Below are positions 8,925 to 46,878 of a stretch of 64,000 nt of DNA, piece by piece. Made by a program: the position numbers and the translations under genes. The notes beneath the pieces were generated by a model. The model was not told the origin of the DNA. It worked only from the letters and a program-made list of their open reading frames with translations, and ran no database searches. The first letter of the stretch is position 1, and every line of letters starts with the position of its first letter. The stretch is from Oscillospiraceae bacterium (GTDB taxonomy: Bacteria; Bacillota; Clostridia; Oscillospirales; Ruminococcaceae), in assembly GCA_021200775.1 (NCBI GenBank), contig JAJQGB010000009.1:268353-332352 (forward strand), given 5' to 3'.

Positions 8925-8952
8925 TTGACATAGTCAGGGGGGGTAGTAGAAT
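8925..8952 (+). promoter_or_regulatory. Promoter with a G7 tract in its spacer (first peptide gene)
   Basis: TTGACA (8925-8930) and TAGAAT (8947-8952) flank a 16-bp spacer containing GGGGGGG at 8937-8943, then TAG. Each added G would bring the spacer closer to 17 bp. Poly-G runs between -35 and -10 tune promoter strength by slippage in other bacteria, for example Neisseria porA. The same layout recurs at 9245. Confidence 0.65.
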
Positions 8953-9002
8953 AATAGGTAGAATTTTTATTTACCCAAAGTGGCACGGGAGGTTATTTTG
9001 TC

Positions 9003-9125
9003 ATGTATGAGAAATATGAGATGGAAATTAAGGAATTTGAGGAGGATGCCTTTGTAAGAACCGTGTCTGGCTTCGATAGTGGTGAAAGCACTTGGAGCCT
9101 CAAACCGAACAGAAGCGACAGCTGA
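9003..9125 (+). CDS. Short acidic peptide, type MYEKYEME (copy 1)
   Basis: A 40-residue peptide starts at ATG 9003 behind GGGAGG. It begins MYEKYEMEIKEFEEDAF and ends WSLKPNRSDS. The first eight codons are identical at the DNA level to those of the second peptide at 9565, while the C-terminal halves differ. A conserved leader-like start with a variable tail is the pattern of modified or exported peptides. It has its own G7 promoter and is followed by a hairpin. A processed or phosphorylated peptide is an inference; nothing in the sequence proves modification. Confidence 0.6.
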   Translation: MYEKYEMEIKEFEEDAFVRTVSGFDSGESTWSLKPNRSDS

Positions 9126-9150
9126 ATATCTGACTTTGGCAAAACTAATC

Positions 9151-9190
9151 GAATCCCCCGTAACTGGCTTTGGCTGGTTGGGGACTTATT
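9151..9190 (+). terminator. Hairpin after the first peptide gene
   Basis: ATCCCC and GGGGAC flank inner complementary segments GGC/GCT, followed by TTATTTG. The sequence resembles the hairpin at 9714, so the two peptide units share downstream as well as upstream elements. Confidence 0.55.
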
Positions 9191-9244
9191 TGTAAAAATA
9201 TTAATCATACCCACATAAATTGATATTGAGCTAAAAACTTTATA

Positions 9245-9271
9245 TTGACATCTGCGGGGGGGTAGTAGAAT
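9245..9271 (+). promoter_or_regulatory. Promoter with a G7 tract in its spacer (Myb-like/peptide/kinase unit)
   Basis: TTGACA (9245-9250) and TAGAAT (9266-9271) flank a 15-bp spacer that contains GGGGGGG at 9256-9262 followed by TAG. The spacer is two bases short of the optimum at this tract length, so the promoter may be weak in the sequenced state. Confidence 0.65.
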
Positions 9272-9564: not shown

Positions 9565-9684
9565 ATGTATGAGAAATATGAGATGGAAGTTGTTTTACTT
9601 GAACAATCTGATGTTATGACCGACTGGTCAAATCAAGGACATATTGTTGGACCTGACAGTGTTGACGATAAGAGTGATATGTGA
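9565..9684 (+). CDS. Short acidic peptide, type MYEKYEME (copy 2)
   Basis: A 39-residue peptide starts at ATG 9565 behind GGAAAGG. It begins MYEKYEMEVVLLEQSDVMTD and ends DSVDDKSDM. The start is shared with the 9003 peptide; the Ser/Asp-rich tail is different. It lies directly upstream of the HPr-kinase-like gene, with a hairpin between. Kinases of that fold phosphorylate Ser residues at the C-terminus of some lasso peptides, and this peptide has C-terminal Ser residues, so it is a candidate substrate. That link is inference. Confidence 0.6.
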   Translation: MYEKYEMEVVLLEQSDVMTDWSNQGHIVGPDSVDDKSDM

Positions 9685-9782: not shown

Positions 9783-10484
9783 ATGACGACACTTCAAATC
9801 GCTGGAATTTCTGTTGGCGTGGATAACAAATATCCTCTCTCGCAGTGGAATTGTGAAGAACACATAACAGTAACCTCTCCCATCTTTACTGCGTCTGCCA
9901 CAGAAAAAGAGGTTCAGGAAGAATATGACAGGTTAAAGGGCGAATTCAATCTCGCCGACTGCGAGAGCAATATTCTCTATCGCAAGGTGAGCGTCGGCAT
10001 GCTCCGTTACGATGCTTTTCTACTCCATGCCGCTGTTGTTGCAGTGGACGGCGAGGGCTATGTGTTCACGGCTCCCGGCGGGACCGGAAAATCCACACAC
10101 GCAAATTACTGGATGCAGGAGTTTGGCGATCGTGCTGTACTAATTAACGGCGACAAGCCAATTATCCGACTTATGAATGATAAATTCTATGTCTGCGGCA
10201 CACCCTGGCGCGGCAAGGAGCGTCTCGGCTGTGCGGAAATTGTCCCGCTGAAAGCCGTGTGCCTTTTGGAACGCGGCGCAGAGAATGAAATTGCACCGGC
10301 TGACGCAGACACGACATTGGATAAGATATTCCAGCAGATACTTCTGCCAGAGGAGCCGGAATTGGCAATGAAGCAACTTGACTTGCTTGACAGGCTTATA
10401 GGTGCCGTGCCTGTATACAATTTAAAATGTAATATGTCTCAAGAAGCCGCCTTTGTAGCATACCAGGGAATAAACCAATTATGA
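9783..10484 (+). CDS. HPr-kinase-like / PEP-carboxykinase-fold protein
   Basis: This 233-residue protein starts at ATG 9783 behind GGGAGG. It has a P-loop APGGTGKSTH near residue 100, preceded by FLLHAAVVAVDGEGYVF and followed by RAVLINGDKPIIR, the layout of the HPr kinase C-terminal domain without the N-terminal sensor half. Stand-alone proteins of this type occur in peptide-modification and polysaccharide loci, where some phosphorylate peptide substrates. Its neighbours are the two short peptides and, about 4 kb on, a nucleotidyltransferase-family gene of the kind often found with it. Substrate unknown. Confidence 0.75.
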   Translation: MTTLQIAGISVGVDNKYPLSQWNCEEHITVTSPIFTASATEKEVQEEYDRLKGEFNLADCESNILYRKVSVGMLRYDAFLLHAAVVAVDGEGYVFTAPGGTGKSTHANYWMQEFGDRAVLINGDKPIIRLMNDKFYVCGTPWRGKERLGCAEIVPLKAVCLLERGAENEIAPADADTTLDKIFQQILLPEEPELAMKQLDLLDRLIGAVPVYNLKCNMSQEAAFVAYQGINQL

Positions 10485-11776: not shown

Positions 11777-12874
11777 ATGGCTGATAAAGAATTTAATCTG
11801 TCGGAGTATATGGCGGGCGGAGTTGAGAACCTTGTCAAAGGCGCAATCAGGGCAACTTTGAAGGACCCAAAGGAGAGCTTATTCATGGCTAAGTTCGCCC
11901 TTTCGAGCCGTGAGGCGACAAAGAGGCGTGCCGAGCTCGAAGCTCAGGGCGAGCATATCCCGCCGTTCCTCATTGCCAGCATAACCAGCAACTGCAACCT
12001 TCATTGTGCCGGTTGCTACGCAAGGGAGAATCATGCTTGCGTGGATGAAGTGGCATACGACCAGTTGACGGCTGACGAGTGGGGAAGAATCTTTGAGGAA
12101 TCAAGGGATTTGGGCATCGGCTTCATACTTTTAGCCGGTGGCGAGCCAATGATGCGGAAGGATGTGCTTCAGAAGGCGGCGGAGTATCCCGAAATCCTGT
12201 TTCCTGTCTTCACCAACGGCACCATGATGAACGACAACTATATCAAGCTTTTCGATAGTGCAAGGAATCTTGTGCCGATTCTGAGCATCGAGGGCGACGA
12301 AAACAAGACAGATGAACGCCGTGGCGACGGAATCTATAAGCTGTTGATTAAAGCTATGGATAAGATTAAGTCGAATCATCTGATTTTCGGAGCGTCAGTG
12401 ACGGTAACCACTTCCAATATCAATGAGGTAGTTTCGGAAGAGTTTTTGACGGAGCTTCAGGAGCGAGGCTGTAAGGCGGTTATCTATGTGGAATTCGTCC
12501 CGGTGACCGATGACAGTACAGAGCTCGCTCCCGGAGATTCCGAAAGAGAATTTTTGAGAAACAAGATGACGGAGCTTCGTGAAAAATATCAGGAGATGAT
12601 TTTTGTTTCATTCCCAGGAGACGAGAAGGCGACAGGCGGATGCCTGGCGGCAGGAAGAGGCTTCTTCCATATCAATTCACATGGCGGAGCTGAACCTTGT
12701 CCGTTCTCGCCGTACTCAGATATAAGTGTCAAAGATACTTCTGTCAGGGAGGCACTGCACTCAAAGCTGTTCACAGAGCTGAGAGACGGCGACGTTCTCG
12801 TCGAAGACCATGCCGGCGGCTGTGTGCTCTTTGAAAGAAGGGATAAAGTCGAGGAGCTGTTAAGTTCCAGATAG
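11777..12874 (+). CDS. Radical SAM protein
   Basis: This 365-residue protein carries the 4Fe-4S motif CNLHCAGC (with Tyr after the last Cys) near residue 75, LAGGEP as the SAM-binding GGE motif, and FTNGTMM. The C-terminal part has further Cys residues (GGCLAAGRG, EPCPFSPYSD, GGCVLF), suggesting an auxiliary cluster or SPASM-like region. It forms an operon with the flavodoxin. The reaction is unknown; clostridial homologues are usually called radical SAM/SPASM proteins. Confidence 0.88.
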   Translation: MADKEFNLSEYMAGGVENLVKGAIRATLKDPKESLFMAKFALSSREATKRRAELEAQGEHIPPFLIASITSNCNLHCAGCYARENHACVDEVAYDQLTADEWGRIFEESRDLGIGFILLAGGEPMMRKDVLQKAAEYPEILFPVFTNGTMMNDNYIKLFDSARNLVPILSIEGDENKTDERRGDGIYKLLIKAMDKIKSNHLIFGASVTVTTSNINEVVSEEFLTELQERGCKAVIYVEFVPVTDDSTELAPGDSEREFLRNKMTELREKYQEMIFVSFPGDEKATGGCLAAGRGFFHINSHGGAEPCPFSPYSDISVKDTSVREALHSKLFTELRDGDVLVEDHAGGCVLFERRDKVEELLSSR

Positions 12875-17810: not shown

Positions 17811-18878
17811 ATGGAAGTGCAAGTTACGAATCGGCAACGATACAATAATTTAGATGGTCTTCGCACAATAGCCGCAATCGGTGTTATTTGTATGCATGTT
17901 AGAGCAAATATCGGTTTCGACGTTGCTGTGTGGGGGGGTACTGCAAATTATGTAGTTAATTCCTTGATAGCACAGATGGGTGGATTTGTTCAGCTATTCT
18001 TCATCCTGAGTGGCTTTTCAATGTGCTGTGGGTATTACGAGAGAATCAAGAATAATGAGATTAGCTTGAATAAGTTTTACAGCAGAAGATACGAGAGAAT
18101 ACTTCCATTTTTTGCATTGCTCGTTTTGATAGATTTAGCTGTGAGTTTAGTGTTTGATGGTGGTATATCTGCTGGAAGTCTTGCAGAGGCATTTGCTGAC
18201 TTAACTTTGATGTTCGGATTCTATACAACATCAGGCATGAGCGTAATAGGAGTAGGATGGACTCTCGGTGTCATATTTGGATTCTATATTCTTTTCCCGT
18301 TCTTTGTGTATTTGATTTGGAATAAGAAGAGGGCATGGTTCAGTTTTGCAATCACTTGCGTTATTTACGTTTTGTGCTGTGAGTATTTCGATTCCGGAAA
18401 CAGCTTGGTGTTTATGTGGATGTGTTATTTCGTCCTTGGCGGTTTGATATATTTGTATAAAGATTCGATAGTCAGTTTCTTCGAGAGAAAAGCTTGGCTC
18501 GGTATTTTGTTTGTATTTGTCGGATTCGCCGTTGTGTACATGATTCCGTTTTCGGGAGAAGGAGCAACAGAGACGATAGTCAGATTGTTAAAGAGCATGA
18601 TTGGATATGGGATGATGATCTCAGGAGCGTTGTGCTCGGATATAAAACTGCTGAGTAATCCAATCAGCAAGTTCGTGAGTGGTGTGAGCTTTGAAATATA
18701 TCTTGCTCACATGATGATATTCAGAGTTATCGATAAGCTGGGTTTGACGACAATTGCAGGAAAGACATTGATTTCATACATAATCGTATGTATTGGGACA
18801 ATAGGCGGAGCCTTGATATTCGCAACTGCTTACCAATATGTGGAGACAATAATTAGAAAGAGATTAGTAAAAGCGTAA
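17811..18878 (+). CDS. Acyltransferase family 3 membrane protein, open at the G7 tract
   Basis: The 355-residue integral membrane acyltransferase has about ten hydrophobic spans. Its N-terminal motif LDGLRTIAAIGVICMHV contains the essential His region and LFFILSGFSMCCGYY the second conserved block. It would O-acetylate or otherwise acylate a sugar of the polysaccharide. The G7 tract at 17932-17938 is read as Trp-Gly-Gly-Thr (codons TGG GGG GGT ACT). Gain or loss of one G gives a stop within about ten codons, so the gene is open only at this length modulo three. Confidence 0.88.
   Translation: MEVQVTNRQRYNNLDGLRTIAAIGVICMHVRANIGFDVAVWGGTANYVVNSLIAQMGGFVQLFFILSGFSMCCGYYERIKNNEISLNKFYSRRYERILPFFALLVLIDLAVSLVFDGGISAGSLAEAFADLTLMFGFYTTSGMSVIGVGWTLGVIFGFYILFPFFVYLIWNKKRAWFSFAITCVIYVLCCEYFDSGNSLVFMWMCYFVLGGLIYLYKDSIVSFFERKAWLGILFVFVGFAVVYMIPFSGEGATETIVRLLKSMIGYGMMISGALCSDIKLLSNPISKFVSGVSFEIYLAHMMIFRVIDKLGLTTIAGKTLISYIIVCIGTIGGALIFATAYQYVETIIRKRLVKA
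17932..17941 (+). repeat. G7TAC tract inside the acyltransferase gene
   Basis: GGGGGGGTAC lies about 40 codons into the gene. It is flanked by an imperfect inverted repeat, TTGCTGT on the left and ACTGCAA on the right (six of seven positions pair). Confidence 0.85.
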
Positions 18879-20080: not shown

Positions 20081-20092
20081 GTGGTGGAGGGT

Positions 20093-35328: not shown

Positions 35329-35376
35329 TTAACAAGACGCTTAGTGAATATACGGAAAGGGAGTCTGCGATTACAA

Positions 35377-36003
35377 TTGATAGATTTACTTAATACAATT
35401 CTGAAAAATGTACTCACAGCCCTTTACCAGCCGTTCTGGTACGCAGTTTTATTATCCATTCTTTTCATGTTCTTTTATCTCTATGCAAAAGAACACGGAT
35501 GGAAGGAGTCAATCCGGATTTGGACGAGCAGATTTAAAGCCTCATCGTATTTTCGGAGAATTTTTCTTCTTGCATTCTATACGACGATGATTTTGTTTCG
35601 GACGTTGCTTAATAGGGATATGTGGATGAATCCGCTTTCTGATGTGATGGGCGGTTGGTGGCTGTGGGAAGATGGCGAGCTAACGACAGGACCAATAGAA
35701 AACCTGATACTCTTTATTCCGTTCACGGTTTTGCTTTTATGGGCGATAGGCAGCAATGCAGACTTGAAAGGGAAGTTCCTGAAAGATATGAAGGTAACCA
35801 CAGTCCTTTGGCAATCCACTAAGGTTACATTCATTTTCAGCGTGTCAATTGAGTTCCTGCAGCTATTTTTGCGATTAGGAACTTGGCAACTCTCAGACAT
35901 GTTTTATAACACATTAGGTGGATTCCTTGGTGGACTGATATATTGGATTGGATGGAGCGTGAAGCATTGCGGAGATGAACCACCGCTGTACACCAAAATA
36001 TAG
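35377..36003 (+). CDS. VanZ-family membrane protein
   Basis: This about 208-residue protein has four to five membrane segments and the VanZ-type region PIENLILFIPFTVLLLW with SIEFLQLFLRLGTWQLSDMF, in which a Glu and the F-x-L-SD motif are conserved. VanZ-like proteins are linked to teicoplanin tolerance and to surface polysaccharides; the role here is unknown. The start is uncertain: TTG 35377 has AAGGGAG upstream, and GTG 35344 is also open. It ends the recognisable polysaccharide locus. Confidence 0.75.
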   Translation: MIDLLNTILKNVLTALYQPFWYAVLLSILFMFFYLYAKEHGWKESIRIWTSRFKASSYFRRIFLLAFYTTMILFRTLLNRDMWMNPLSDVMGGWWLWEDGELTTGPIENLILFIPFTVLLLWAIGSNADLKGKFLKDMKVTTVLWQSTKVTFIFSVSIEFLQLFLRLGTWQLSDMFYNTLGGFLGGLIYWIGWSVKHCGDEPPLYTKI

Positions 36004-36222
36004 AGCAACACAAAATATCTCATTAACACAACCTGAAATGGTATGAACCATTGTTGCAAACGGTGGTAATAGAAATACGGAACGACCAAACCATAGGTAG
36101 CAAATTAAGAAAGATACCTTGTACCAATGAACCTTATAAAAGAATATAAGCAGACAATACTTTTGATTCTCATTGACTTTTTATCTGCATCTTCAGCTAT
36201 CTGCTGGGAGTATGCTTGCCAC

Positions 36223-36340
36223 CTGTTTGAGTGTGGTTACGATGAAAAACTACTTCTCAAGGGTTTTCAAGAAAGTTGATGGCTACTCGCCAAGTGAACT
36301 CAGAAGACTCTGGATGACCAGAAGCCACAAAGAAAAATAA
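36223..36340 (+). pseudogene. AraC-type regulator remnant (last helix-turn-helix)
   Basis: The frame fragment ECGYDE followed, one base out, by KNYFSRVFKKVDGYSPSELRR is the end of an AraC/XylS DNA-binding domain. The rest of the gene is missing upstream. The stretch 36004-36222 has no supported gene. Confidence 0.65.
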
Positions 36341-36494
36341 ATATCAAAATACCACTGGACATGTGCGAAACTCTATGGTAAACTTAGAACGGATAGCATA
36401 TTTTCAATGTGGGAACGATGGTCGCAACCATAGCGGAAGCCCTACAAGAATAAAAGTCATAAAAATAAAGACAGAATGGGAGTTTAGAAAATCA

Positions 36495-36761
36495 ATGAAA
36501 GAAAGCTTTACCTACAAAATCACAGGAAAGAGAGAAAACAACAAAGCTTTAGCTCTTCTTGCACATGAAGCCGCAAAGTACTCATGCAATATCTATGTAG
36601 CCAAACCCGCTTCGTCACCAAAAGATGCAAAGAGCATTATGTCGTTAATAACAGGTTGCTTCAAAACAGGAGACACACTTGAATTTTCGTTTGACGGTTC
36701 CGATGCGGATGTCGCCGCAAAGAATATAAAAGCGGCGTTGGAAGATTCCATTGGACTCTAA
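36495..36761 (+). CDS. Degenerate HPr-like protein without the active-site histidine
   Basis: The 88-residue product has the length and end pattern of HPr: SPKDAKSIMSLITGC near the middle (HPr: AKSIMGVMSL) and DTLEFSFDGSDADVAAKNI as the last strand and helix. The HARPA site that carries the phosphorylated His is replaced by NNKALALLAHEA. It therefore cannot act as a standard PTS phosphocarrier; a regulatory or Crh-like role is possible, and the Ser of AKSIMS remains. ATG 36495 follows GGGAG. Confidence 0.7.
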   Translation: MKESFTYKITGKRENNKALALLAHEAAKYSCNIYVAKPASSPKDAKSIMSLITGCFKTGDTLEFSFDGSDADVAAKNIKAALEDSIGL

Positions 36762-36782
36762 GTCATAGCGTAAAAAGAAGCT

Positions 36783-36838
36783 CCTGTGGCTTCTCAGAGA
36801 AAACTCTGGGAGCTACAGGGGATTATTTGTTTTTATTG
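36783..36838 (+). terminator. Terminator after the HPr-like gene
   Basis: CCTGT/ACAGG, GCT/AGC and CAGAG/CTCTG form an interrupted long stem, followed by a T-rich run. Confidence 0.7.
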
Positions 36839-37307
36839 TACTCTATGGAAAGTTCCCAATCTCAAGATACTTATCCATATCAACAATCTCTGCCCCGTGC
36901 CAAGCAGGTTGCCCCCACTTGCCAAAACGACAATCGGTTTAAAGGCAGAAATATAAAAGTAATTATTCTGAGAAATAAAGCAGCTACGGTGGTCGATTTA
37001 GACAAGATACAAGTCCGTGGCATAAATAAAGCATAACAGAAGTAACTGCGAAGACCCCGTGTTCATCAAAATTTCAGAAAATAATCCCACATTCGTTGCC
37101 TCTGTGTTGTTGTATTGATTTCGCCCAAGTGATAAAATGGGGAGTAGCAATCTATGTTGCAAAATCGGATTGACATTGCGTTCAAACCATATCGTGGGCT
37201 TTTCTCCCATTCGTCACCCAATGTGCTGGAGAAGCGCAGACGCTATCAGATTTCGAGCGTTACGCTTAATGATATGATGCAATCTGAATTCTATGTGAGG
37301 GATAATT
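36839..37307. other. Intergenic stretch without a supported gene
   Basis: I see no complete gene here. On the minus strand near 36860-36930 a short frame reads FGKWGQPAWHGAEIVDMDKY and may be the tail of a lost gene. A T-rich region near 37110-37140 could hold the promoter of the following SDR gene. Confidence 0.4.
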
Positions 37308-38216
37308 ATGAGTTGGAAATTAGAAGATATACCTGACCTTTCCGGCAAAGTTATGATTGTGACAGGTGCAAACAGCGGTCTGGGCTTTGAGACTGCCAAG
37401 GAGCTTTCTCGCAAAGGCGCAAAAGTTGTGATGGCTTGCCGTAATCCGAAAAAGGTGGAAGCCGCCATGCAAAAGATACGGGACGATGTTCCGAATGCGG
37501 ATTTGGATGCTATGCACTTAGACCTTGCCAGTCAAAAAAGTGTTGCGGATTTTGCAGATCAATTCAAACAGAAATACAGTCGCCTCGATGTTCTCGTCAA
37601 TAATGCGGGAATTATGGCTGCGCCGTATTCTGAAACCGTTGATGGCTTTGAAAATCACTTTGCAACGAACTATCTCGGTCACTTTGCATTGACAGGAAGA
37701 TTGCTCGACCTGTTGGAGGCAACGCCCGGCGCAAGAGTTGTCAGTGTCAGCAGTCTTGCATATTTTTTCGGAAACAAGATAGATTTTGATAATCTGTACT
37801 ATAAAAATAAAAAGGGCTTCGGTAGATGGAGAGCATACGGACGCTCCAAAATGGAAATGCTTTTGTTTGCTTATGAAATGCAACGGCGTCTTACACGCAC
37901 AGGCAAGTCGACAATCTCACTTGCCGCACATCCCGGAATAGCACAGACAAACATAATGCCGGCTCAGGCAAACAACACTTTCACTAAAGGATTCCTGACG
38001 TTTGTAGCGAGCTTTCTGAAGCCTACCATCTATGGTGCAATGCCATTGATTCGTGCGGCTACAGACGAAACTGTCAGAGGAGGCGAATACTTCGGACCAT
38101 CAAAGGGCAGGATGCCTGATGTAGTCAAATCCAATAAAGCGTCGCATAATCTGGATACAGCGAAAAAGTTGTGGGAAGCTTCTGAAACATTAACAGGACT
38201 TCACTATTTGGATTAG
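37308..38216 (+). CDS. Short-chain dehydrogenase/reductase
   Basis: This 302-residue SDR shows the NAD(P)-binding TGANSGLGFETA, the NNAG motif, catalytic Ser in VVSVSSLAYFF and Y-G-R-SK (AYGRSKMEML) as the Tyr-Lys pair. It resembles retinol-dehydrogenase-like or protochlorophyllide-reductase-like members that act on small lipophilic substrates. The start at ATG 37308 follows GAGGG. It stands alone before a terminator. Substrate unknown. Confidence 0.92.
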   Translation: MSWKLEDIPDLSGKVMIVTGANSGLGFETAKELSRKGAKVVMACRNPKKVEAAMQKIRDDVPNADLDAMHLDLASQKSVADFADQFKQKYSRLDVLVNNAGIMAAPYSETVDGFENHFATNYLGHFALTGRLLDLLEATPGARVVSVSSLAYFFGNKIDFDNLYYKNKKGFGRWRAYGRSKMEMLLFAYEMQRRLTRTGKSTISLAAHPGIAQTNIMPAQANNTFTKGFLTFVASFLKPTIYGAMPLIRAATDETVRGGEYFGPSKGRMPDVVKSNKASHNLDTAKKLWEASETLTGLHYLD

Positions 38217-38294
38217 GCTTTTTTCAAACTAAGCTGACCCTGCTGGATATGTGCAAAACTTTATGGAGGTCAAGAAAAAGAATAACATCATCCT

Positions 38295-38334
38295 TCCGAA
38301 AGAGATTCTGAAGTGACTCTCTTTCGGACTTTTT
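38295..38334 (+). terminator. Terminator after the SDR gene
   Basis: TCCGAAAGAGA pairs with TCTCTTTCGGA, followed by TTTTT. Confidence 0.85.
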
Positions 38335-38442
38335 GTGTTGACGGGACAAGATATGCCTTGCACACCCTCAAATTATATGTTATACTTCAATCAGAGCAAC
38401 ATTTGCAGAAAATGTGGATGAAATACCTGATAAGAAAGGAAA

Positions 38443-40422
38443 ATGAATATGCTTTTCAACAGAAAAAAGAAGATTGAGCCAGCTAAAGTAAACAATGCTG
38501 TAAATGACACTGGTAGTAATGATTCCAAGCCTGCTGTAAAAATGGTTAATCCCAATGATCCTTATCGTCTATATGAACAATATATAAAGTACTGGTACGA
38601 TGGTGATCCTGAAACAGCCTACGAGTATGCTTTAAAAGCCGCCAAGGCTGGAGATGAAGATGGGCTTTTAACCTATGGAATACACTACATGGATGGTGAT
38701 GGTGTTGAAGTTGACAAAGAAAAAGCGTTCAACGCCTATAAAATCGGTGCCGAGTTGGGAGGACACGACACCCAGGTTCAGCTTGCCAGATGTTATGAAC
38801 AGGGTGAAGGAACGGAAGTTGACATCGAAAAAGCCATCTATTGGTATGAGGAATCTCTGAAAAAGGAGGATGATTACAGAATCAGAAACAGAATTGAGGA
38901 ACTGCGTGCCCTGACGGATTCCGCTCTTGCCGAAAAATTGGCTGAAAAGAAGGCAAAAGAAGCGGAGGAAGAAAGGAAAAGGCAAGAAGAATTAGATAAT
39001 TATTATAATACCGAAGAAGGGAAGCAGAAGCTATACAATACTTATTTAGCTGGTGCTTTGAAAGGCTATCCCGTATCACAGTTCAGTCTTGGCGTATGTT
39101 GCAGAGAGGGAAGAGGCACCGCTGTTGATAAGGGACAGGCTCTTCGCTGGTTTCAGGTTGCTGCCGTAAATGGGCACTTAGGAGCAATGTATGAACTGGC
39201 CAGATGTTACGAAAACGGTGAAGGCACCGCCGTTAATAAGCCTGTAGCCTTTTACTGGTATTTAAAAGCCGCCAGGGATGGGCACGAGGCTTCCCAGAAC
39301 ATTGTCAAGCAAATATCGCCTGATGAAGCAATCAGTTATTTAAACAGTGTATATGAAGTTGAAAACGAGAAACTGGGCTCAGATGCCAAGAGATTAAAAG
39401 AGCTTATGGAATTCGACTTATATAAGAATGGTGCTGAAAACGGCAATGCAGTTGCAATGAGAAATCTCAGCAAATGTTATGAAGAGGGAATTGGAACCGA
39501 CACCGATATTTCTCAGGCATTTTACTGGCTCAAGAAAGCTGCTGAAGCGGGAGATGTCGATTCACAATATCATTTGGGCTTGTATTACGAGAAAGGCACA
39601 GGTACAGAAAAAGATGAAAATCAGGCGTTTTATTGGTTCAGGACGGCTTCTGAAAACGGGCACATTGACGCCATGTATGAGCTTGCAACCTGCTATGATC
39701 TTGGCACGGGAGTCGCCAAAGATCTGAATCAGGCGTTTTATCTTTACGATCAGCTCTGCCAAAAAGGATACATTCAGGCACAGTACGCCATGTGCTATCT
39801 TATAATGAGTGACCTGACCCCTGAACAAAGGGATAAAGCCGTGTATTGGCTCGAACAGGCTGGTAAGGTGGACTATGAAGATTCGCAAAGTTGGCTTTAC
39901 ACTTTTTATTCATACGGAATGTATAGTTTAAAGCCAGATGAGAAAAAAGCCCTCTATTGGCTGGAAAAGCTTGCAGAGGGCGGAGATATAGAGTCACAGC
40001 GTGAAGCCTACAGGCGTTATAATGAGGGCATAGGAACGGCTGTCAACAAGCAAAAGGCAATTTATTATCTCAGTAAAATAGCCGAAGGCGGAGACATTGA
40101 TGCCCAGATTGATCTGTACAACATGTACAGATCGGGGAAAGAAGGTGTACAGAAGGATGATAAGAAGACATTTTACTGGTGTCAGAAGCTTGCTGAAGAA
40201 GACTTTGAGCAAGCGTACCATAATCTCGCACTGATGTATCTGAAAGGTGAGGGAACCAGCCGGAATGACTATAAAGGCTTTTATTGGGCGAAAAAAGCTG
40301 CAGAGGCAGGGAATGTAAAGGGCATGGAAATGCTGTATAGGCTATATTATGATGGTGTAGGGACAGATGCAGATATGTCGCAGTATCGCTATTGGTATAA
40401 AATGTGGAAACAGAGCAAGTAG
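38443..40422 (+). CDS. Sel1-repeat protein
   Basis: The 659-residue protein is built almost wholly of about fourteen Sel1-like (TPR-type) repeats of about 36 residues with the pattern A-Y-LG-CYE-G-GT--D---AF-W--KAAE-G. A Lys/Glu-rich coiled-coil segment lies at about residues 160-190. No signal peptide or membrane span is seen, so it is likely a cytoplasmic scaffold. Neighbouring repeats are diverged at the DNA level. ATG 38443 and ATG 38449 are both possible behind AAAGGA. Confidence 0.9.
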   Translation: MNMLFNRKKKIEPAKVNNAVNDTGSNDSKPAVKMVNPNDPYRLYEQYIKYWYDGDPETAYEYALKAAKAGDEDGLLTYGIHYMDGDGVEVDKEKAFNAYKIGAELGGHDTQVQLARCYEQGEGTEVDIEKAIYWYEESLKKEDDYRIRNRIEELRALTDSALAEKLAEKKAKEAEEERKRQEELDNYYNTEEGKQKLYNTYLAGALKGYPVSQFSLGVCCREGRGTAVDKGQALRWFQVAAVNGHLGAMYELARCYENGEGTAVNKPVAFYWYLKAARDGHEASQNIVKQISPDEAISYLNSVYEVENEKLGSDAKRLKELMEFDLYKNGAENGNAVAMRNLSKCYEEGIGTDTDISQAFYWLKKAAEAGDVDSQYHLGLYYEKGTGTEKDENQAFYWFRTASENGHIDAMYELATCYDLGTGVAKDLNQAFYLYDQLCQKGYIQAQYAMCYLIMSDLTPEQRDKAVYWLEQAGKVDYEDSQSWLYTFYSYGMYSLKPDEKKALYWLEKLAEGGDIESQREAYRRYNEGIGTAVNKQKAIYYLSKIAEGGDIDAQIDLYNMYRSGKEGVQKDDKKTFYWCQKLAEEDFEQAYHNLALMYLKGEGTSRNDYKGFYWAKKAAEAGNVKGMEMLYRLYYDGVGTDADMSQYRYWYKMWKQSK

Positions 40423-40443
40423 TAATGGCTAGTTGCTGCTCTC

Positions 40444-41403
40444 TCACCACCCCCAATTCCCGAGATACCACCTCACCGTCTCCTTAATTCCGTCCTCAAA
40501 CTTCATCTCCGGCATCCATCCAAGCTCCTCCTGAATCTTCGTCGCATCAATCGCATACCTCAAATCATGCCCTTTGCGGTCGGGAACGAAAGCAATAAGG
40601 CTCTCCGGCTTCGCAAGCTCCCGGCAAATCATCTTCACAACGTCGATATTTCTCATCTCATTGTGCCCGCCGACATTGTAGACCTCGCCGTCTCTGCCTT
40701 TGTGGATAATGAGGTCAATCGCCCGGCAATGGTCTTCGACATAGAGCCAATCCCGGACGTTGAGACCTTCGCCAAAGGCCAGCAGAGGCTTGTCGTTCAG
40801 AGCGTTCATAATCGTGAATGGAATCAGCTTTTCCGGAAACTGATATGGACCATAGTTATTGGAGCAACGGCTGATTGTTACCGGCAAGCCGTAGGTCCTG
40901 TGGTAAGCCAAGACCAGCAGGTCAGCTGAAGCTTTACTCGAACTATACGGACTGCTTGGACGAATCGGGGATTCTTCAGTAAAGAAGAGGTCAGGTCTGT
41001 CAAGAGGCAAGTCTCCATAAACCTCATCTGTCGAGACCTGATGAAATCGAGCAATTCCGTACTTCCGGCAGGCGTCCATCAGGACACTTGTGCCGATAAT
41101 ATTTGTCTGGAGGAAGATTTCGGGATTTTCGATTGAACGGTCAACGTGGCTCTCAGCAGCGAAGTTGACTACAATATCAGGCTTTTCTTCTTCAAAAAGC
41201 TTGTAAACAGCTTCGCGATCGCAGATGTCAGCCTGTATAAACCGAAAAATCGGGTTGTCCATGACAGGTGTCAGCGTCGAGAGATTGCCAGCATAGGTCA
41301 GCTTATCTAAACAGATAATGCGGTAATCGGGGTGAGTCCCCAGCATATGAAATATAAAGTTCGAGCCGATGAATCCGGCTCCACCGGTTACGATTATTGT
41401 CAT
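40444..41403 (-). CDS. rfbB: dTDP-glucose 4,6-dehydratase
   Basis: This 319-residue SDR-type enzyme has VTGGAGFIGSNF, the DKLTYAG segment, ESHVDRSI, STDEVYGDLP (catalytic Thr-Asp-Glu), PYSSSKASAD and SRCSNNYGPYQFPEKLIP. It converts dTDP-glucose to dTDP-4-keto-6-deoxyglucose for rhamnose and other deoxysugars, and probably feeds the polysaccharide locus. ATG 41403 follows AAGGGGA; the frame is open further upstream. It is close behind the polymerase cassette on the minus strand. The other rml genes are not in the window. Confidence 0.93.
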   Translation of the reverse strand: MTIIVTGGAGFIGSNFIFHMLGTHPDYRIICLDKLTYAGNLSTLTPVMDNPIFRFIQADICDREAVYKLFEEEKPDIVVNFAAESHVDRSIENPEIFLQTNIIGTSVLMDACRKYGIARFHQVSTDEVYGDLPLDRPDLFFTEESPIRPSSPYSSSKASADLLVLAYHRTYGLPVTISRCSNNYGPYQFPEKLIPFTIMNALNDKPLLAFGEGLNVRDWLYVEDHCRAIDLIIHKGRDGEVYNVGGHNEMRNIDVVKMICRELAKPESLIAFVPDRKGHDLRYAIDATKIQEELGWMPEMKFEDGIKETVRWYLGNWGW

Positions 41404-41404
41404 G

Positions 41405-41629
41405 TTACTTATCCCCTTCATTCTCATCCCCACAAACTTCAATTTCCTCACTCTTCATCGCTTTCCCTGCTTCCTCCCCAATCCTTTCCGAATGTCCTCT
41501 GAGAGCCTCAAACGGCGCAAAAATCTTCGCCCTGTCCTGCGGAGACATTTTCGGATGCTTTCTGAGAATTTCCTCCGACCAGGGTCGCTCCATGTCGATT
41601 ATATCGTCAAAATTTTCATTCAGATTCAC
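41405..41629 (-). CDS. YolD-like protein
   Basis: This 74-residue protein has the YolD-like core HPKMSPQDRAKIFAPFEALRGH. Such small proteins are encoded directly after Y-family polymerases in clostridia and bacilli and are thought to modulate them. It overlaps the polymerase gene by four bases, so both are translated together. Confidence 0.8.
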   Translation of the reverse strand: MNLNENFDDIIDMERPWSEEILRKHPKMSPQDRAKIFAPFEALRGHSERIGEEAGKAMKSEEIEVCGDENEGDK

Positions 41630-43089
41630 AGCTTGCCCTCCTCGCCAGCCTTGTGCCCGCCAATCTGTCCGTTGCGCTCCCTCATCGTGGCGCCTTCAAG
41701 GAAATTGGTACCTTTCAGAACCGAATTCTTCCCAAACCTCTGCTTGATGCCGACGATGGCGTCCTGCAGATTTTTTTCTTTTTCGAGACGCTCCGTGTCG
41801 GTAAACATATCGACCTGCATGATGCCCGGATCCGGGATGACCCGATTTGCAGTGACGGTAATCCGCCGGACAGTTAAATTTTTGTCTACAATCCTGTCAA
41901 ACAGCCCCACAATCGCATTCTGAAGCTGACTGCCGATGTTCGTCGGACTGTCGAGCCTCGTGCTCCCGTGAGCGGGTTTCGGGACAAGCCTCCCGTAGTG
42001 GTCGGTCTTCGTGTCGCCGATATAGTTGCCCTTATCGCAATTCTCTCTGTCGTAGGCAATGTCGAGCGTGAATGAGTCGGACACAAGACCTTTTGTCGTC
42101 AATTGCAACATCAGGCTGTCGGTCATCTCCTGGACAATGATTCTCGCCTTCTCATACGGATATGGTTCTGAGAGAACCTGCCCTTCGGAGAGACTGTTCG
42201 TCTCCGATTTGTAAGACTTTACCAACTCCATCGTCGTCGGCTCAATTCCCCAGGCGTGGTCGATGAGAATTTCGGCGTCGATTCCGAATTCTTTGTAGAA
42301 CCATTCCTGGTCGTAAATCGACATCCTCGCTAGCTGTCCCATCGTGTAAATCCGCCGTTTTTCGAGCCTTCGGGCGGTGCCTTTGCCAATCCGCCAGAAG
42401 TCAGTGAGTGGAGTGTGGTTCCACAACTTTTCTCTGTAGGAGTGCTCGTCGAGCTCCGCAATCCTGACGCCGTCCTTGTCCGCAGGAACGTGCTTCGCCA
42501 CGATGTCCATTGCAATTTTGGCAAGATACATGTTCGTCCCGATTCCGGCGGTGGCGGTGATTCCCGTTGCATAAAGAACCTCCCGAATCAGCGTCATGCA
42601 GAGCTCGTGGGCGGTCATACCGTAGGTGTGCAGATAGCCGGTTGCGTCGATGAAAACCTCGTCAATCGAGTAGGAGAAAATATCCTCGGGAGCAATATAT
42701 TTCAAATAGATTGAGTAAATCTGCGCCGAGACATCGACGTATCTCGCCATCCGTGGCGGAGCGACAATGTAAGATAATTTAAGATTCGGGTCTTCGGATA
42801 AGCCTACTGAATCAAAACACTCAGTTGTAAACCTGTGTCCCGGAGCCTTGCGAAGTCGCTCAGCATTTACTTCCTGAACTTTTTGCACGACTTCAAAAAG
42901 CCTCGCCCTGCCCGGAATCCCGTAAGCCTTCAGAGAAGGGGAGACCGCCAAGCAAATTGTCTTCTCGGTGCGACTCTGGTCCGCCACCACGAGGTTTGTC
43001 GTCAGCGGGTCAAGGTGCCTGTCCGCACACTCGCAACTGGCATAAAACGATTTCAAGTCTATAGCAAAATATGTTCTTTTCTTGTCCAT
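41626..43089 (-). CDS. Y-family DNA polymerase (UmuC/DinB-like)
   Basis: This 487-residue translesion polymerase has YFAIDLKSFYASCECADR (first catalytic Asp and steric-gate region), YSIDEVFIDATGYL (catalytic Asp-Glu), TATAGIGTNMYLAKIAMD and the helix-hairpin-helix FWRIGKGTARRLEKR. The length and the YolD-like partner match the UvrX/UmuC-type branch often found on Gram-positive mobile elements. A LexA box lies in the promoter region, so it should be induced by DNA damage. Confidence 0.93.
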   Translation of the reverse strand: MDKKRTYFAIDLKSFYASCECADRHLDPLTTNLVVADQSRTEKTICLAVSPSLKAYGIPGRARLFEVVQKVQEVNAERLRKAPGHRFTTECFDSVGLSEDPNLKLSYIVAPPRMARYVDVSAQIYSIYLKYIAPEDIFSYSIDEVFIDATGYLHTYGMTAHELCMTLIREVLYATGITATAGIGTNMYLAKIAMDIVAKHVPADKDGVRIAELDEHSYREKLWNHTPLTDFWRIGKGTARRLEKRRIYTMGQLARMSIYDQEWFYKEFGIDAEILIDHAWGIEPTTMELVKSYKSETNSLSEGQVLSEPYPYEKARIIVQEMTDSLMLQLTTKGLVSDSFTLDIAYDRENCDKGNYIGDTKTDHYGRLVPKPAHGSTRLDSPTNIGSQLQNAIVGLFDRIVDKNLTVRRITVTANRVIPDPGIMQVDMFTDTERLEKEKNLQDAIVGIKQRFGKNSVLKGTNFLEGATMRERNGQIGGHKAGEEGKL

Positions 43090-43110
43090 GCCGTCTCTCC
43101 TTTCTTAGAA

Positions 43111-43404
43111 TCAGCTCGCCACAACTTCCACAAACCATCGCCCGAGCCGTGGCGGAAACGGTGCATGTTCAAAGAACAGTCGCTTCTCTTCTCCCTTGAT
43201 TACCACCGTGTAGCAGTCGCCAGGGAAGCCGAAGCCGACGGTATCAGCCGGTCTGAAGTCCCGAACCTCGTCAATTTTGTACATCCGCCCGTTCGTCCAC
43301 TCTACCGCCTTCGGATGCATGAACCCCGTCGTGTCAATCTCCGAAGTGACCGACACGTAAATTTTTTCATATTTCGGATGCAACGCCCTCGCAGTCGCAT
43401 TCAT
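43111..43404 (-). CDS. Unknown protein, first gene of the SOS cassette
   Basis: This 97-residue protein starts at ATG 43404 behind GGAGGTG. It has no clear membrane segment; notable are IYVSVTSEIDTTGFMHPKAVEW, RPADTVGFGFPGDCYTVVI and a C-terminal PPRLGRWFVE. It lies 22 bp before the polymerase gene behind the LexA-controlled promoter, so it is likely a conserved partner of the polymerase. I do not recognise the family with certainty. Confidence 0.65.
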   Translation of the reverse strand: MNATARALHPKYEKIYVSVTSEIDTTGFMHPKAVEWTNGRMYKIDEVRDFRPADTVGFGFPGDCYTVVIKGEEKRLFFEHAPFPPRLGRWFVEVVAS

Positions 43405-43435
43405 GCCGGTCACCTCCAATTCAATCAGCATTTTA

Positions 43436-43447
43436 GAACTTTCGTTC
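43436..43447. promoter_or_regulatory. LexA (DinR) box
   Basis: GAACTTTCGTTC matches the Gram-positive SOS consensus GAAC-N4-GTTC and lies directly after the -10 of the minus-strand promoter. Confidence 0.8.
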
Positions 43448-43449
43448 CT

Positions 43450-43478
43450 ATTGTAGCACAGGTAGGGGGTTGTGTCAA
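43450..43478 (-). promoter_or_regulatory. Promoter of the SOS polymerase cassette
   Basis: On the minus strand TTGACA (43478-43473) and TACAAT (43455-43450) are 17 bp apart, with the LexA box at the expected transcription start. Confidence 0.85.
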
Positions 43479-43535
43479 GTGGAAAAATCGGGAATCCGGT
43501 CTTGATTTCCCGTTCCCCAAAAAATTTTTTCAAAT

Positions 43536-43572
43536 CCCCCATAAAAAACTCTTGACAAGTCGTTTATGGGGG
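43536..43572. promoter_or_regulatory. Ten-base inverted repeat around the -35 of the surface-protein promoter
   Basis: CCCCCATAAA (43536-43545) and TTTATGGGGG (43563-43572) are perfectly complementary and embrace the -35 hexamer at 43552. Such a dyad is a likely operator for an unknown regulator. Confidence 0.6.
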
Positions 43573-43580
43573 ATTATAAT
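43552..43580 (+). promoter_or_regulatory. Promoter of the beta-helix surface protein
   Basis: TTGACA (43552-43557) and TATAAT (43575-43580) with a 17-bp spacer. Transcription should start near 43587. Confidence 0.85.
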
Positions 43581-43586
43581 TGTAGC

Positions 43587-43770
43587 ATGTGGTGGAAGGG
43601 CAGAAATTGCTTAACCACAGAAACTATTGTGGGGGGGTACTGCCTTCCGACCCGAAATTTTTTCGGGGCTTCCGAAGTCAAAGTGCCCATACCAAACCTC
43701 CGCACTATTAAAACAGGTGCTCGGAGGTTTTTATATTTTCCTCCGAAGTACAACTAAGGAGGAATTTTTT
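43587..43770 (+). promoter_or_regulatory. Structured leader RNA with a G7TAC tract and competing hairpins
   Basis: The leader can fold into a helix of GGAAGGGCAG (43594-43603) with CTGCCTTCC (43640-43648) enclosing a hairpin CCACA/TGTGG (43615-43632) that uses the first two bases of the G7 tract (43631-43637). A second hairpin CCCGAAA/TTTCGGG (43651-43667) and a terminator follow. CGGAGG at 43722 can pair with CCTCCG at 43697 (terminator) or at 43740 (antiterminator), and the latter CCTCC can also pair with the AGGAGG ribosome site. This is the layout of a riboswitch or attenuator; no known class was recognised. Confidence 0.55.
43694..43732 (+). terminator. Leader terminator (attenuator) before the surface protein
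   Basis: AAACCTCCG and CGGAGGTTT form a nine-base stem with a 19-base loop and a T run, 39 bp before the start codon. Confidence 0.7.
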
Positions 43771-46659
43771 ATGGCAAAACGCCTTATTTGCGTAATAATA
43801 AGCGTTTTAATGATCGTCTCACTCCTTCCGACAAGCGTCTTCGCCGAGGTTGACGAAGACAGCCCTGCACAAGTTGAGGCTGTAGCGGAAGAGGAAGCTG
43901 AAGAAGGCGTTGACGAAGGCGGTGGTACTGCCGGAGAGGAGCCCGTTGAAGAGGAGGAAGAGGAAGAAAATCTTGGAGATGGACCTGTTGAAGGTGGAGA
44001 TATGGAAATACCGGATGATACCGTCGAAATTCAGCGTGATGGCTATACAATCTCAGGTCCTACCCTCGGCGACATCGAGGATGAAATAGAAGACGGAGAT
44101 AAAATTACTCTTATAGCTGACTGCGGAGAAACGTATACAGCTACAATTTCTGCTAGCGACGTCACCATCGACCTAGCCGGTTACACTCTTAGCCAAACCA
44201 TCACCATCGCCAGTGGCGCATCAGTAACCTTTACTGATAGCAGTGAAGCTAGCACAGGTACATATACCGGCACACTGACCGTTAGCGAGGGCGGCACCCT
44301 AATCATTTCCAGCGGCACCTATTCTGGAACTATAACCAATAACGGCACGCTGACAATCACCGGCGGCACGTTCTCTAGCAGTAGCTGGGGTGATGCTTTT
44401 GCTAGTTGTGTTGCTGAAGGTTATGTTGCTACATATGATGAAACTACTCAAACCTACACAGTTAGTGAAGTTACTGTTAGTTATGTAGCAACGAATACTA
44501 CAACCAATACTTCATATACAACTCTTCAGGCGGCTATCGATGCGGCATCTAGTGGCAATACGATTACGCTTCTTGCAAGTGTCACCGAAGATATAACCAT
44601 CGCTAGCGACGATAACATCACCCTCGACCTCGCTGGCTACACTATCACTGGCACAGGTTCGTCAAGTGTTATCACTGTAAACGGTACTTTGACTTTGAAC
44701 GATAGCACAGCAACATCGAGCACATCATCCAGTGGCACAGTAGGCACAACCCTAAACAGCGACGGTACCTATACAACCGTTTACACTGAAACTACCTACG
44801 ACAGTGAAACCGATTTGCTCACAACCACCTATCACTCCTACACTTCCGGTGCTATTACCGGGGGAGTTGGAACTAGTAAAAAGGGTGGCGGTGTTTATAT
44901 CAATACTGGAGCAACCCTTATAATGAACGGTGGTACCGTTTATAGCAATACCTTGTCAAGTAGCACAAATAGCTATGGCGCAGGAATTGCGGCATGTGAA
45001 AGCAATTTGACTATAAATGGTGGCGTTGTTGCGGGAAACACCGTAACTCAGGGCACTAGTGGCGGAGCGGGCGTTTATGTCCTTTGGGGCAGTTTTTCAA
45101 TGACCGGTGGCGCAATCTGCAATAATACTGCTAATGCTACCAACGGATATGGTGGCGGCATCTATTTCTTAAATGGAAATAAAGCTTCAGTTACATATTC
45201 AATCACTGGCGGTGTTATCAGTGGAAATACAGCGAGGTCTGGTGCAGGTATTTACGCAAATAACAGTACATTTACTCTAAGCGATGCTACTGTGATTTCT
45301 GACAACTCAATTGCAACATCAGGCACTGGCGGCGGTATTACTCTTGCGGATGGTGCTATTTTGAATATGACTGGTGGCATTATTGCTAATAACACTGCTT
45401 CTGGTAACTCATCGTCGTTCGGCGGTGGTATCTTCCTGACAGCCAACGGCACCAACAAGCTCAACATGTCTTGTGGTGTTATAGTGGGGAATACTGCTGT
45501 CGGCGGCGGAGGAGTAACTTTAAGTTATTCTGAAAGTAATGAGTTTACAATGTCCGGTGGTTTTATAACAAAAAATACAGCATCTTACTCTAGTTGGAGT
45601 TCAGCTTCCGGTACAGGCGGTGGTGTGCTTATTGATGGAACATTTACAATGACCGGGGGAGCCATCTACGGTAACACTGCTTCTCATGCTGGTGCAGACA
45701 TTGCGACAAAGGATAATGACTATTCAACAATTACCTTGATTGCCGCTTCATCTATGGAATCAGCTGATAGTAGTTCATTTTCAAACTGGGTTTGGTACTA
45801 CGATCCTGTATATGATGCTTCAGCAGGCGATAGATACAGTAAAAATGGAAGTAATACGGAGGCAACTTCTCTTAATTATTCAAGTACAAGCGGCGTTTAT
45901 CTGTACTTAATAGCTGCAGAGTCTGATTCATTCTATCTCGGCGTCTACGGCGACACAACCTCCGTCCCCGCTGAAATAGCTTCCGGCGAAGGCGAAGCTA
46001 CGATGTACGTCCTCGTAACGAGTAGCAACATCACTAACTACAGTGCCGACACGGAGGAAGCAAGCGGCGTTTATCCGACAACTTCGGAGACCTTCACTGT
46101 AACGTCAACTTCTACTGCTGATGATGGTACGGAAATAACAACGACTACAGCTCACAGCTACATCTTCGCTGGATGGTACAGTGCATCGACAGATGAGGAT
46201 GGTAAAACAACCTATACTGCATTGACTTCAGTCCCGACAGACTCTGACGCCTACGCCAAGTTCGTAGATGCGAATGTTTTGACGGTTAAGGCGCAGATAA
46301 CGAGTGGAACGGATGCAAATTCAGAAACTACAAGTATGAGATTTGTAAGTACTGTTGATACTGTAAAGTACAGTTTGGTAGGATTCTCAATCACTGTAGG
46401 CAGTACGACAAAGGATGTAACATCAAGCGATGTCTATGAGAATATATCTGGTGGTTCAACAGTTTATAGCCCGTCTGACTTCAGCGATGCGTCGACGTAC
46501 TTTGTCACATATACGTTGAAGAATATCCCGAAAGCGAGCTTTGATGCAGAAATTAAAGTTCAAGCTTGCTGGAAGACCCAGGATGGTACTATGGTATATG
46601 GTCCTACATATACCTTCAAGGTCAGCGACGGATATACTAAAACAAGTACTGATGAGTAA
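43771..46659 (+). CDS. Secreted beta-helix surface protein
   Basis: The 962-residue protein starts at ATG 43771 behind AAGGAGG with a signal peptide (MAKRLICVIISVLMIVSLLP, cleavage near VFA). An acidic Glu-rich stretch follows (residues 25-80), then a long Thr/Ser/Gly-rich region with parallel beta-helix repeats of the type MTGGAI-GNTA and ITGGVISGNTA (about residues 380-650). The C-terminal part has repeats like FTVTSTST and a VKAQITSGTDAN domain. No LPxTG or membrane anchor is visible, so attachment is unclear. Beta-helix proteins of this type are adhesins or carbohydrate-binding proteins. Confidence 0.85.
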   Translation: MAKRLICVIISVLMIVSLLPTSVFAEVDEDSPAQVEAVAEEEAEEGVDEGGGTAGEEPVEEEEEEENLGDGPVEGGDMEIPDDTVEIQRDGYTISGPTLGDIEDEIEDGDKITLIADCGETYTATISASDVTIDLAGYTLSQTITIASGASVTFTDSSEASTGTYTGTLTVSEGGTLIISSGTYSGTITNNGTLTITGGTFSSSSWGDAFASCVAEGYVATYDETTQTYTVSEVTVSYVATNTTTNTSYTTLQAAIDAASSGNTITLLASVTEDITIASDDNITLDLAGYTITGTGSSSVITVNGTLTLNDSTATSSTSSSGTVGTTLNSDGTYTTVYTETTYDSETDLLTTTYHSYTSGAITGGVGTSKKGGGVYINTGATLIMNGGTVYSNTLSSSTNSYGAGIAACESNLTINGGVVAGNTVTQGTSGGAGVYVLWGSFSMTGGAICNNTANATNGYGGGIYFLNGNKASVTYSITGGVISGNTARSGAGIYANNSTFTLSDATVISDNSIATSGTGGGITLADGAILNMTGGIIANNTASGNSSSFGGGIFLTANGTNKLNMSCGVIVGNTAVGGGGVTLSYSESNEFTMSGGFITKNTASYSSWSSASGTGGGVLIDGTFTMTGGAIYGNTASHAGADIATKDNDYSTITLIAASSMESADSSSFSNWVWYYDPVYDASAGDRYSKNGSNTEATSLNYSSTSGVYLYLIAAESDSFYLGVYGDTTSVPAEIASGEGEATMYVLVTSSNITNYSADTEEASGVYPTTSETFTVTSTSTADDGTEITTTTAHSYIFAGWYSASTDEDGKTTYTALTSVPTDSDAYAKFVDANVLTVKAQITSGTDANSETTSMRFVSTVDTVKYSLVGFSITVGSTTKDVTSSDVYENISGGSTVYSPSDFSDASTYFVTYTLKNIPKASFDAEIKVQACWKTQDGTMVYGPTYTFKVSDGYTKTSTDE

Positions 46660-46703
46660 AACAGTCAGGTGATATGTTTCTTGCTTTGAAAGGAGTGTAC
46701 GAC

Positions 46704-46826
46704 ATGAAGTACGAAGAACCAAAGTTTGCGGTTATATACTTTGACGGAGATGTTTTCGCAGATTTAACTGTTAAATCTAATGACACTAGTAGTGATAGCG
46801 GAGATTTCACTGAGCTCTTCGGCTGA
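46704..46826 (+). CDS. Short acidic peptide, type MKYEEPKF (copy 3)
   Basis: A 40-residue peptide starts at ATG 46704 behind AAGGAG. It begins MKYEEPKFAVIYFDGDVFAD and ends SSDSGDFTELFG. The start resembles the MYEKYEME peptides at 9003 and 9565, with a hydrophobic/acidic core and a Ser/Asp-rich tail. It lies between the surface protein and a gene pair that includes the second Myb/SANT-like paralogue, repeating the linkage seen at 9 kb. Confidence 0.6.
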   Translation: MKYEEPKFAVIYFDGDVFADLTVKSNDTSSDSGDFTELFG

Positions 46827-46845
46827 TATATACTAATAGCCCGAC

Positions 46846-46878
46846 ATCAGGGCGGGGGGGTCCCGCCCTGATTCTTTT
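46846..46878 (+). terminator. Terminator after the third peptide gene (contains a G7 run)
   Basis: ATCAGGGCGGG and CCCGCCCTGAT form an 11-base stem followed by TCTTTT. The G7 run at 46854-46860 is shared between stem and loop and is followed by TCC, unlike the other tracts. Confidence 0.88.

Follow-up and report, generated by a model that had tools for sequence, protein, structure and literature searches.

Why should a 64-kb stretch of an Oscillospiraceae genome (the window, that is, the whole stretch of DNA analysed here) carry nine runs of exactly seven G, eight of them directly followed by the same dinucleotide? A preliminary description had placed these runs at 8937, 9256, 17932, 20427, 30517, 32395, 34315, 43631 and 46854, all on the + strand and seven long, with TA next to eight and TAC next to six, and our recount bore out each of these figures. 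The common strand, correct as a count, is a mere consequence of gene direction. The window contains no C run of at least six, two G6 runs and eight G5 runs, and TA follows 38 of the 852 runs of three to five G on both strands (4.5%) versus eight of nine at G7 (p ~1e-10). Pfam matches and sequence reading also upheld the proposed placement, with two runs in promoter spacers, five in polysaccharide genes, one in the leader of a surface protein and one in a terminator. The last of these (46854–46860, + strand) lies in a terminator-like GGGCGGG hairpin, is followed by TCC instead of TA and was rejected as a member, reducing the supposed family of nine to eight. The eight TA tracts form three classes: promoter spacers (two), glycan genes (five, of which two are in frame and three lie at a frame break) and a structured leader (one).

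The most likely answer, judged from sequence, is that dozens of short G runs, many of them in a common sequence setting, in promoters, RNA leaders and surface-coat genes of this genus of gut bacteria act as random on/off switches. More specifically, we consider it highly probable that the tracts are genus-wide poly-G contingency (phase-variation) loci with narrow, group-specific lengths, three kinds of effect and a flank in cis. Each tract and its flanks would make up one cis motif, in which single-G gains or losses would alter the frame of surface-glycan genes, the −35/−10 distance or the pairing of a leader RNA, with replication slippage as the simplest cause. The motif, the length classes, the frame pattern, the gene classes, the between-species length differences and the conservation of the leader are seen in the sequence itself, whereas actual switching is inferred.

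The window's genome (G000; 2.06 Mb in 17 contigs) contains 30 runs of at least seven G, and 25 of these stand before TA (p 2e-29). By our own classification, 11 of the 25 TA tracts lie in genes, 6 in leaders and 5 in promoters, 3 being unassigned, and 11 of the 12 coding tracts precede TA. TA is missing from five runs: the terminator tract at 46854, a G7-TGG within a gene, a run that AAT follows and, where contig 10 ends, two long runs. The latter, a G19 and a G11, face each other in a C/G-rich stretch (46075–46128) that probably reflects a repeat or an effect of the assembly at the contig end. Of the 31 genomes examined in the genus, 24 contain exact G7-TA, and the reversed control matches 0 to 3 times per genome; outside the family the largest excess seen among 287 sampled genomes of the same class was 7 versus 2. 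For a comparison free of selection for TA, we counted runs of at least seven G before nine other dinucleotides (AA and CA enter neither count, and the sums are our own). Here and below, the relatives are divided by tract length, not by tree, into group A (G000 and G006–G015) and group B (G016–G029). Group A has 173 such runs before TA versus 92 before the nine others together, and the remaining genomes (G001–G005 and G030) have 5 versus 29; when the counts are scaled to a single dinucleotide, 25 of the 31 genomes show a threefold or greater preference for TA (our ratio). The genome-wide run counts, the nine-dinucleotide control and the flank count of this genome (see below) are unselected for TA, whereas the motif logos and most fetched stretches were picked by it, making TA 100% there by construction. 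A plasmid search with positions 28592–46900 of the window gave no match. Phage origin was rejected as well, since AGTGTG7TAC occurred in 1 viral contig versus 10 for its reversed control; the group-B pattern, searched without a control, occurred in three viral contigs.

The uniform length of seven stressed at first turned out to be a mode, since the same genome has 7 G6, 22 G7 and 3 longer runs before TA. Nor did a process tied to exactly seven hold up: the mode is seven here and nine in another species group, and six is common in some. Among the group-B stretches and one from G001 (L084), all picked for TA, the runs of at least seven comprise 3 G7, 5 G8, 47 G9, 17 G10, 5 G11 and 2 G12, and the favoured range is 6–8 in group A and 9–11 in group B. 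Length polymorphism at the same site was found, between species only. We compared 17 between-species site pairs by eye, taking one pair per site and leaving out paralogous promoters and leaders, the pair L037/L069 and second matches of the same site; lengths were equal in nine and differed by one G in eight, and TA was retained in all 17, although paralogy is possible for some of the promoter and leader pairs and four queries also matched run-less places. A glycosyltransferase tract, for example, is G7 and in frame in L045 and G6 and out of frame in L058. Repeated copies whose tract surroundings are nearly identical also occur within single contigs, with G10 and G7 at positions 770 and 1373 of L074 and three G9 copies at 8901, 10114 and 11667 of L075, where the one piece searched encodes DUF285/BspA-like repeats.

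Homopolymer collapse or another assembly artefact, which the preliminary description had raised, would mimic a length of seven, and both the sharp mode at seven in this assembly and the relatives' contigs that start at or near a tract fit such an origin. We nevertheless judge it very improbable, because lengths of 6–12 with group-specific modes occur across many assemblies (some with NODE-type contig names), G19 and G11 were assembled in this same genome, and the in-frame lengths described next are non-random.

All five coding tracts of the window are on the + strand, precede TAC and lie in genes assigned by Pfam. At 17932–17938, in an acyltransferase-3 gene (open reading frame (ORF) 17811–18878), and at 20427–20433, in a family-4 glycosyltransferase (GT4) gene (ORF 20081–21238), the frame is open through the tract; the former site is also G7 in L059. 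The three others stand at a frame break: 30517–30523 in a family-2 glycosyltransferase (GT2) gene (open piece 29793–30515, then 85 codons), 32395–32401 early in an acyltransferase-3 gene (16 codons separate it from the first upstream start codon, and 312 follow) and 34315–34321 within another acyltransferase-3 gene (275 codons upstream, 86 downstream). At the last site the upstream ORF scores above the family cut-off and the downstream piece weakly, at 29.8 bits versus a cut-off of 31. As had been proposed, the frame shift between the upstream and downstream pieces is identical at all three breaks, and one and the same change would mend them.

Tracts lie in open frames in the sense direction at 52 of 95 group-A sites (1 antisense only) and 40 of 72 group-B sites (6 antisense only), from which four leaders and three sites with TTGAC upstream, respectively, were excluded for the in-frame test, leaving 48 and 37. 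In group A, 48 of 48 coding sites stay in frame at a length of 7 or 8 (mod 3) and none at 6 or 9; the same holds for 41 of 41 sites once near-identical ones are merged (p 3e-5), and for 18 of 18 with at least 60 codons in both pieces (p 0.011). Group B shows an even distribution of in-frame lengths (16, 10 and 11 of 37, p 0.43). The automatic choice of frame may err at individual sites. From these counts, the in-frame length lies within each group's range of variation, with six out of frame in group A, which is the pattern that selection for switching would predict.

The identity of the host genes agrees with this reading. A Pfam match was obtained for 37 of the 40 pieces searched (of 111 listed), mostly to surface-glycan and surface-protein families; the relatives' stretches were picked where tracts cluster, and the surface-gene share there is therefore no enrichment figure. 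The hosts include acyltransferase-3, glycosyltransferases of families 1, 2 and 4, WecG, Stealth, hexapeptide transferases, TupA, FrhB-like proteins, LPXTG pilin, BspA-like repeats, a DNA methylase and a small number of metabolic enzymes, EPSP synthase among them. Together with the in-frame lengths, they support the original suggestion that genes for surface glycans and surface proteins carry poly-G contingency loci. The methylase (N6_N4_Mtase, L032 6391–7590; contig 13 of this genome, tract at 151383) has an in-frame G7-TAC, which suggests a phase-variable methylome.

In the promoter class, the first G7 (8937–8943) occupies the 16-base spacer of a promoter read from the sequence at 8925–8952 on the + strand (TTGACA 8925–8930, TAGAAT 8947–8952). 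The second (9256–9262), 319 bases downstream, occupies the 15-base spacer of another (9245–9271, + strand). A relative (L089) has the same pair at an identical distance of 319 bases, with G6 and G6 in place of G7 and G7. Spacers measure 14–16 in 13 group-A promoters and 14–19 in ten group-B promoters, seven of which have 18 or 19. In this class, TA is explained by the −10 region. Downstream of the two G7 promoters, at 9003–9125 and 9565–9684, are peptides of 40 and 39 residues that both start with MYEKYEME, followed by an ORF (9783–10484) with weak ScmC/HprK-like matches below cut-off and by a radical SAM/SPASM-like protein (11777–12874). This is possibly a small-peptide cluster, resembling those for ribosomally synthesized and post-translationally modified peptides (RiPPs), under phase-variable promoters. 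Promoters with a TA-joined G run are not confined to this genus, as far as can be read from two metagenome-assembled genomes (MAGs) of rabbit-gut Bacilli, in which runs of at least eight G before TA greatly exceed the reversed control (49 versus 0 and 31 versus 2). In these MAGs (Lapin-012 bin22 and Lapin-032 bin38; L157–L191), many promoters have the form TTGAC, a few bases, G8–11, TA...TATAAT, a large promoter-switch family in another class; TTGAC lies just upstream in 46 of 47 tracts, counted by eye among tracts fetched for their TA.

The third class is the leader. Behind a good promoter at 43552–43580 (TTGACA 43552–43557, TATAAT 43575–43580, + strand, by direct reading) lies a predicted structured leader RNA at 43626–43774 (+ strand; fold z −3.8; 87.8 bits with our leader model, R1). 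It contains the G run (segment 1, 43631–43637), CCC (43686–43688), CCTCC (segment 2, 43697–43701), GGAGG (segment 3, 43723–43727), a second CCTCC (segment 4, 43740–43744) and a Shine-Dalgarno-like GGAGG (segment 5, 43758–43762). A long secreted-type protein, found by ORF search, follows at 43771–46659 (+ strand) and matched no Pfam or NCBIfam family, whether searched as the ORF from 43627 (E 0.001) or from 43771 (E 0.01). In an alignment of 14 leaders the G core, CCC, AACCTCC, GGnGG and AGGAGG are invariant. The model built from these 14 has 112 matches at E ≤0.001, of which 10 lie in this genome; they are spread over 11 of the 31 genomes, every one a group-A genome. Group B gave none, with 104 candidates scored per genome, and absence elsewhere is hence not exhaustive. 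Rfam at its gathering score returned three tRNAs for the window and no leader match. Some group-B tracts precede a different terminator-like hairpin (L081, L124, L127 and position 1 of L073 and L080), maybe a second leader type; the contigs L073 and L080 start exactly at the G run.

Helix P1 of the leader consists of the last three G and the following UA paired with (U)ACCC, which explains the TA in this class. The outer n−3 G would bind CCUCC, which forms the 5′ arm of a terminator-like hairpin. With CCUCC (segment 2) held by the G run, GGAGG (segment 3) would pair with CCUCC (segment 4) and the Shine-Dalgarno-like GGAGG (segment 5) would be freed, so that more G would mean more readthrough and a free Shine-Dalgarno sequence, the direction of control being deduced from this cascade. 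Eight G are just sufficient for both partners. The mean number of predicted pairs between G run and CCUCC before segment 3 is made is 2.51 for six G (8 leaders), 3.65 for seven (21), 4.97 for eight (4) and 4.70 for nine (1). The alternative pairing segments are conserved among the leaders; covariation supports them in part and rests on P1. Over 34 distinct leaders, 94.1% of the cells of the two helices are paired, a value as high in none of 500 shuffles, and sliding the helices gave 37–54%. A leader RNA that seems to count G in this way looks new.

What, then, joins TA to the run in coding sequence? The flank in group A is mostly [GT]YG[TC]-Gn-TA, usually with C after TA, and in this genome (224 kb of stretches, including every run of at least seven G) the form [GT]YGY..TA surrounds 34 of 15193 G2, 5 of 2539 G3, 2 of 464 G4, 1 of 59 G5, 12 of 25 G7 and 2 of 3 G8 runs, or, pooled, 42 of 18255 runs of two to five versus 14 of 28 runs of seven or eight. 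Across group-A stretches, which are partly TA-picked, it is present at 13 of 38 runs of six, 37 of 61 of seven and 7 of 9 of eight. Group B has the form AAAWTTnnGC-Gn-TA, with AAAWTT at −10 to −5 and C at −1 in 52 non-promoter sites (column p 1e-4 to 1e-21). A flanking motif that is rare at two to five G and common from six or seven looks new, and our literature search, mostly of open-access papers, turned up no precedent that we recognised, either for this flank or for loci of the kind in the families concerned. A test for inverted repeats flanking the runs gave no significant result (coding p 0.06, others 0.14–0.94). Most coding sites lack a hairpin, which weighs against a repetitive extragenic palindromic (REP)/RAYT-like element or an insertion sequence target, both considered on account of GTAG and a hairpin.

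One alternative needs no shared factor at all: TA would arise from separate causes (P1, the −10 region, chance or protein constraint) atop ordinary slippage loci. The leader TA in P1 and the TTGAC of the Bacilli tracts fit this view, and some run-less homologues already read GGN GGN GTA, for example GGC GGC GTA, plain glycine codons at the place of the tract from which the run seems to have been made by point changes, not by insertion. Against it, the coding tracts of this genome, as classified above, nearly all precede TA, and the coding flanks agree to −4 in group A and −10 in group B. In group A the flank was seen in all three codon phases, so that protein constraint is no explanation. We hold separate causes to be a possibility of some weight, if an unlikely one. 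Since the TA of leaders and promoters is explained structurally, it is mainly the coding tracts that call for more, and either a host factor or a convergence of separate causes may account for theirs.

A host factor could take several forms. The bolder proposal, which we advance tentatively and think unlikely to hold in full, is that a dedicated, diverging trans factor recognises Gn-TA together with the half-motif before it and promotes slippage at these places or restricts it to them. The genus would then possess a targeted contingency system of set length, and a new G-counting leader RNA, in which the outer n−3 G pair with its own terminator-like arm, would be among the target classes. Quite improbable, in our view, is a fixed Gn-TA site for a trans reader, for instance a NusG-type antiterminator acting on an ops-like site or a small RNA comparable to Helicobacter RepG, with the broken frames due to ordinary gene decay. 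The motif does resemble GGGGCGGTAGCGTG, presumably the ops/JUMPstart element (RfaH, LoaP), its flank is conserved past the run, and in leaders a hairpin follows it directly. Yet tracts in promoter spacers precede the transcription start, decay would not yield the avoidance of 6 and 9 (0 of 48) in the group-A in-frame lengths, and broken sites retain their tract between species; no reader was found, in a search for PF02486 only. That family was searched for as the mark of MOBT relaxases, which target oriT sites of the ICEBs1/Tn916 kind (for such enzymes, see PMC9371924 in part) and one of which might nick the tracts, the motif resembling the origin of transfer (oriT) of ICEBs1: in the relevant passage of PMC10233336, ACCCCCCCACGCTAACAGGGGGGT holds the complement of GCGTGGGGGGGT. 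Rep_trans (PF02486) occurs in 1 of the 31 genomes (G005), itself without G7TA or a longer run before TA, and in neither the window's genome nor the 29 others, and nicking by a relaxase is thus an extremely remote prospect. The shared context suggested early on gains substance from the conserved flank. The dedicated factor suggested with it stays a conjecture, the one candidate family searched for, this relaxase, not having been found.

Several observations weigh against our reading of the tracts as contingency loci with a cis flank. TA is not universal: the coding tract at C9:44717 is G7-TGG, group B has 208 runs before TA versus 357 before the nine others, G016 has no TA excess (11 versus 92), and G002–G005 and G030 have none or one TA run each. 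The full flank is missing at 14 of the 28 G7–8 runs of this genome. Nine of the 13 group-A promoters would need G9 to reach a spacer of 17, beyond the usual range. MutS (PF01624) is encoded in 30 of the 31 genomes, including the window's; lost mismatch repair was therefore rejected as a cause, and slippage at seven G would not be eased by it. For the leader, two measures out of five do not stand out from the shuffles (pairs with both sides changed, 86 of 500; further pair types, 105 of 500), helix P2 hardly varies (four of five pairs invariant) and the leaders were aligned to fit the model. The gain of pairs with more G is partly arithmetic, and fewer than two pairs are predicted in 3 of the 21 G7 leaders, including the window's (1.26). 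In full-length folds the terminator form wins, with fewer than 0.5 pairs between G run and CCUCC in 14 of 15, so the switch would need to act during transcription.

How do these tracts compare with known systems? The poly-G/C contingency loci of Campylobacter jejuni and Neisseria are cases of simple-sequence phase variation, which, as generally understood, requires the repeat alone. Phase-variable promoters with homopolymer spacers are also familiar, for example Mycoplasma vlp and Neisseria opc/fetA. Our promoter tracts likewise lie between −35 and −10, but are joined directly to TA or TANTATAAT, and the group-A spacers are now those short ones of 14–16. With the Campylobacter and Neisseria loci (for Neisseria, see PMC5084427 in part), the tracts share single-base length changes, surface genes, a narrow length range and both promoter and coding sites. 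They differ in being short (6–8) in one group and in having a flank that accompanies the run from about six G, the passages of PMC5084427 concerned mentioning no fixed flank. The leader recalls Helicobacter pylori tlpB, in which a variable G-repeat in the mRNA leader is targeted by the small RNA RepG (PMC8295292, in part). Unlike there, the proposed partner in the 112 leader matches is in cis, the CCUCC of the leader's own terminator-like hairpin. In the pyrG leader of Bacillus subtilis, added G pair with a terminator arm. These extra 5′-end G stem from reiterative addition by RNA polymerase in pyrimidine starvation and prevent attenuation, according to the parts of PMC4448216 that treat them, whereas the G of our leaders are encoded in DNA.

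Taken together, if the reading is true, a run-linked flank that appears in every codon phase and has a group-specific upstream half would be hypermutability written in the sequence, perhaps read by a protein or an RNA. The leader class would be a compact switch, an attenuator whose strength is tuned G by G, and natural alleles of six, seven and eight exist. Commensal gut Clostridia would then vary their surface coat as pathogens do.

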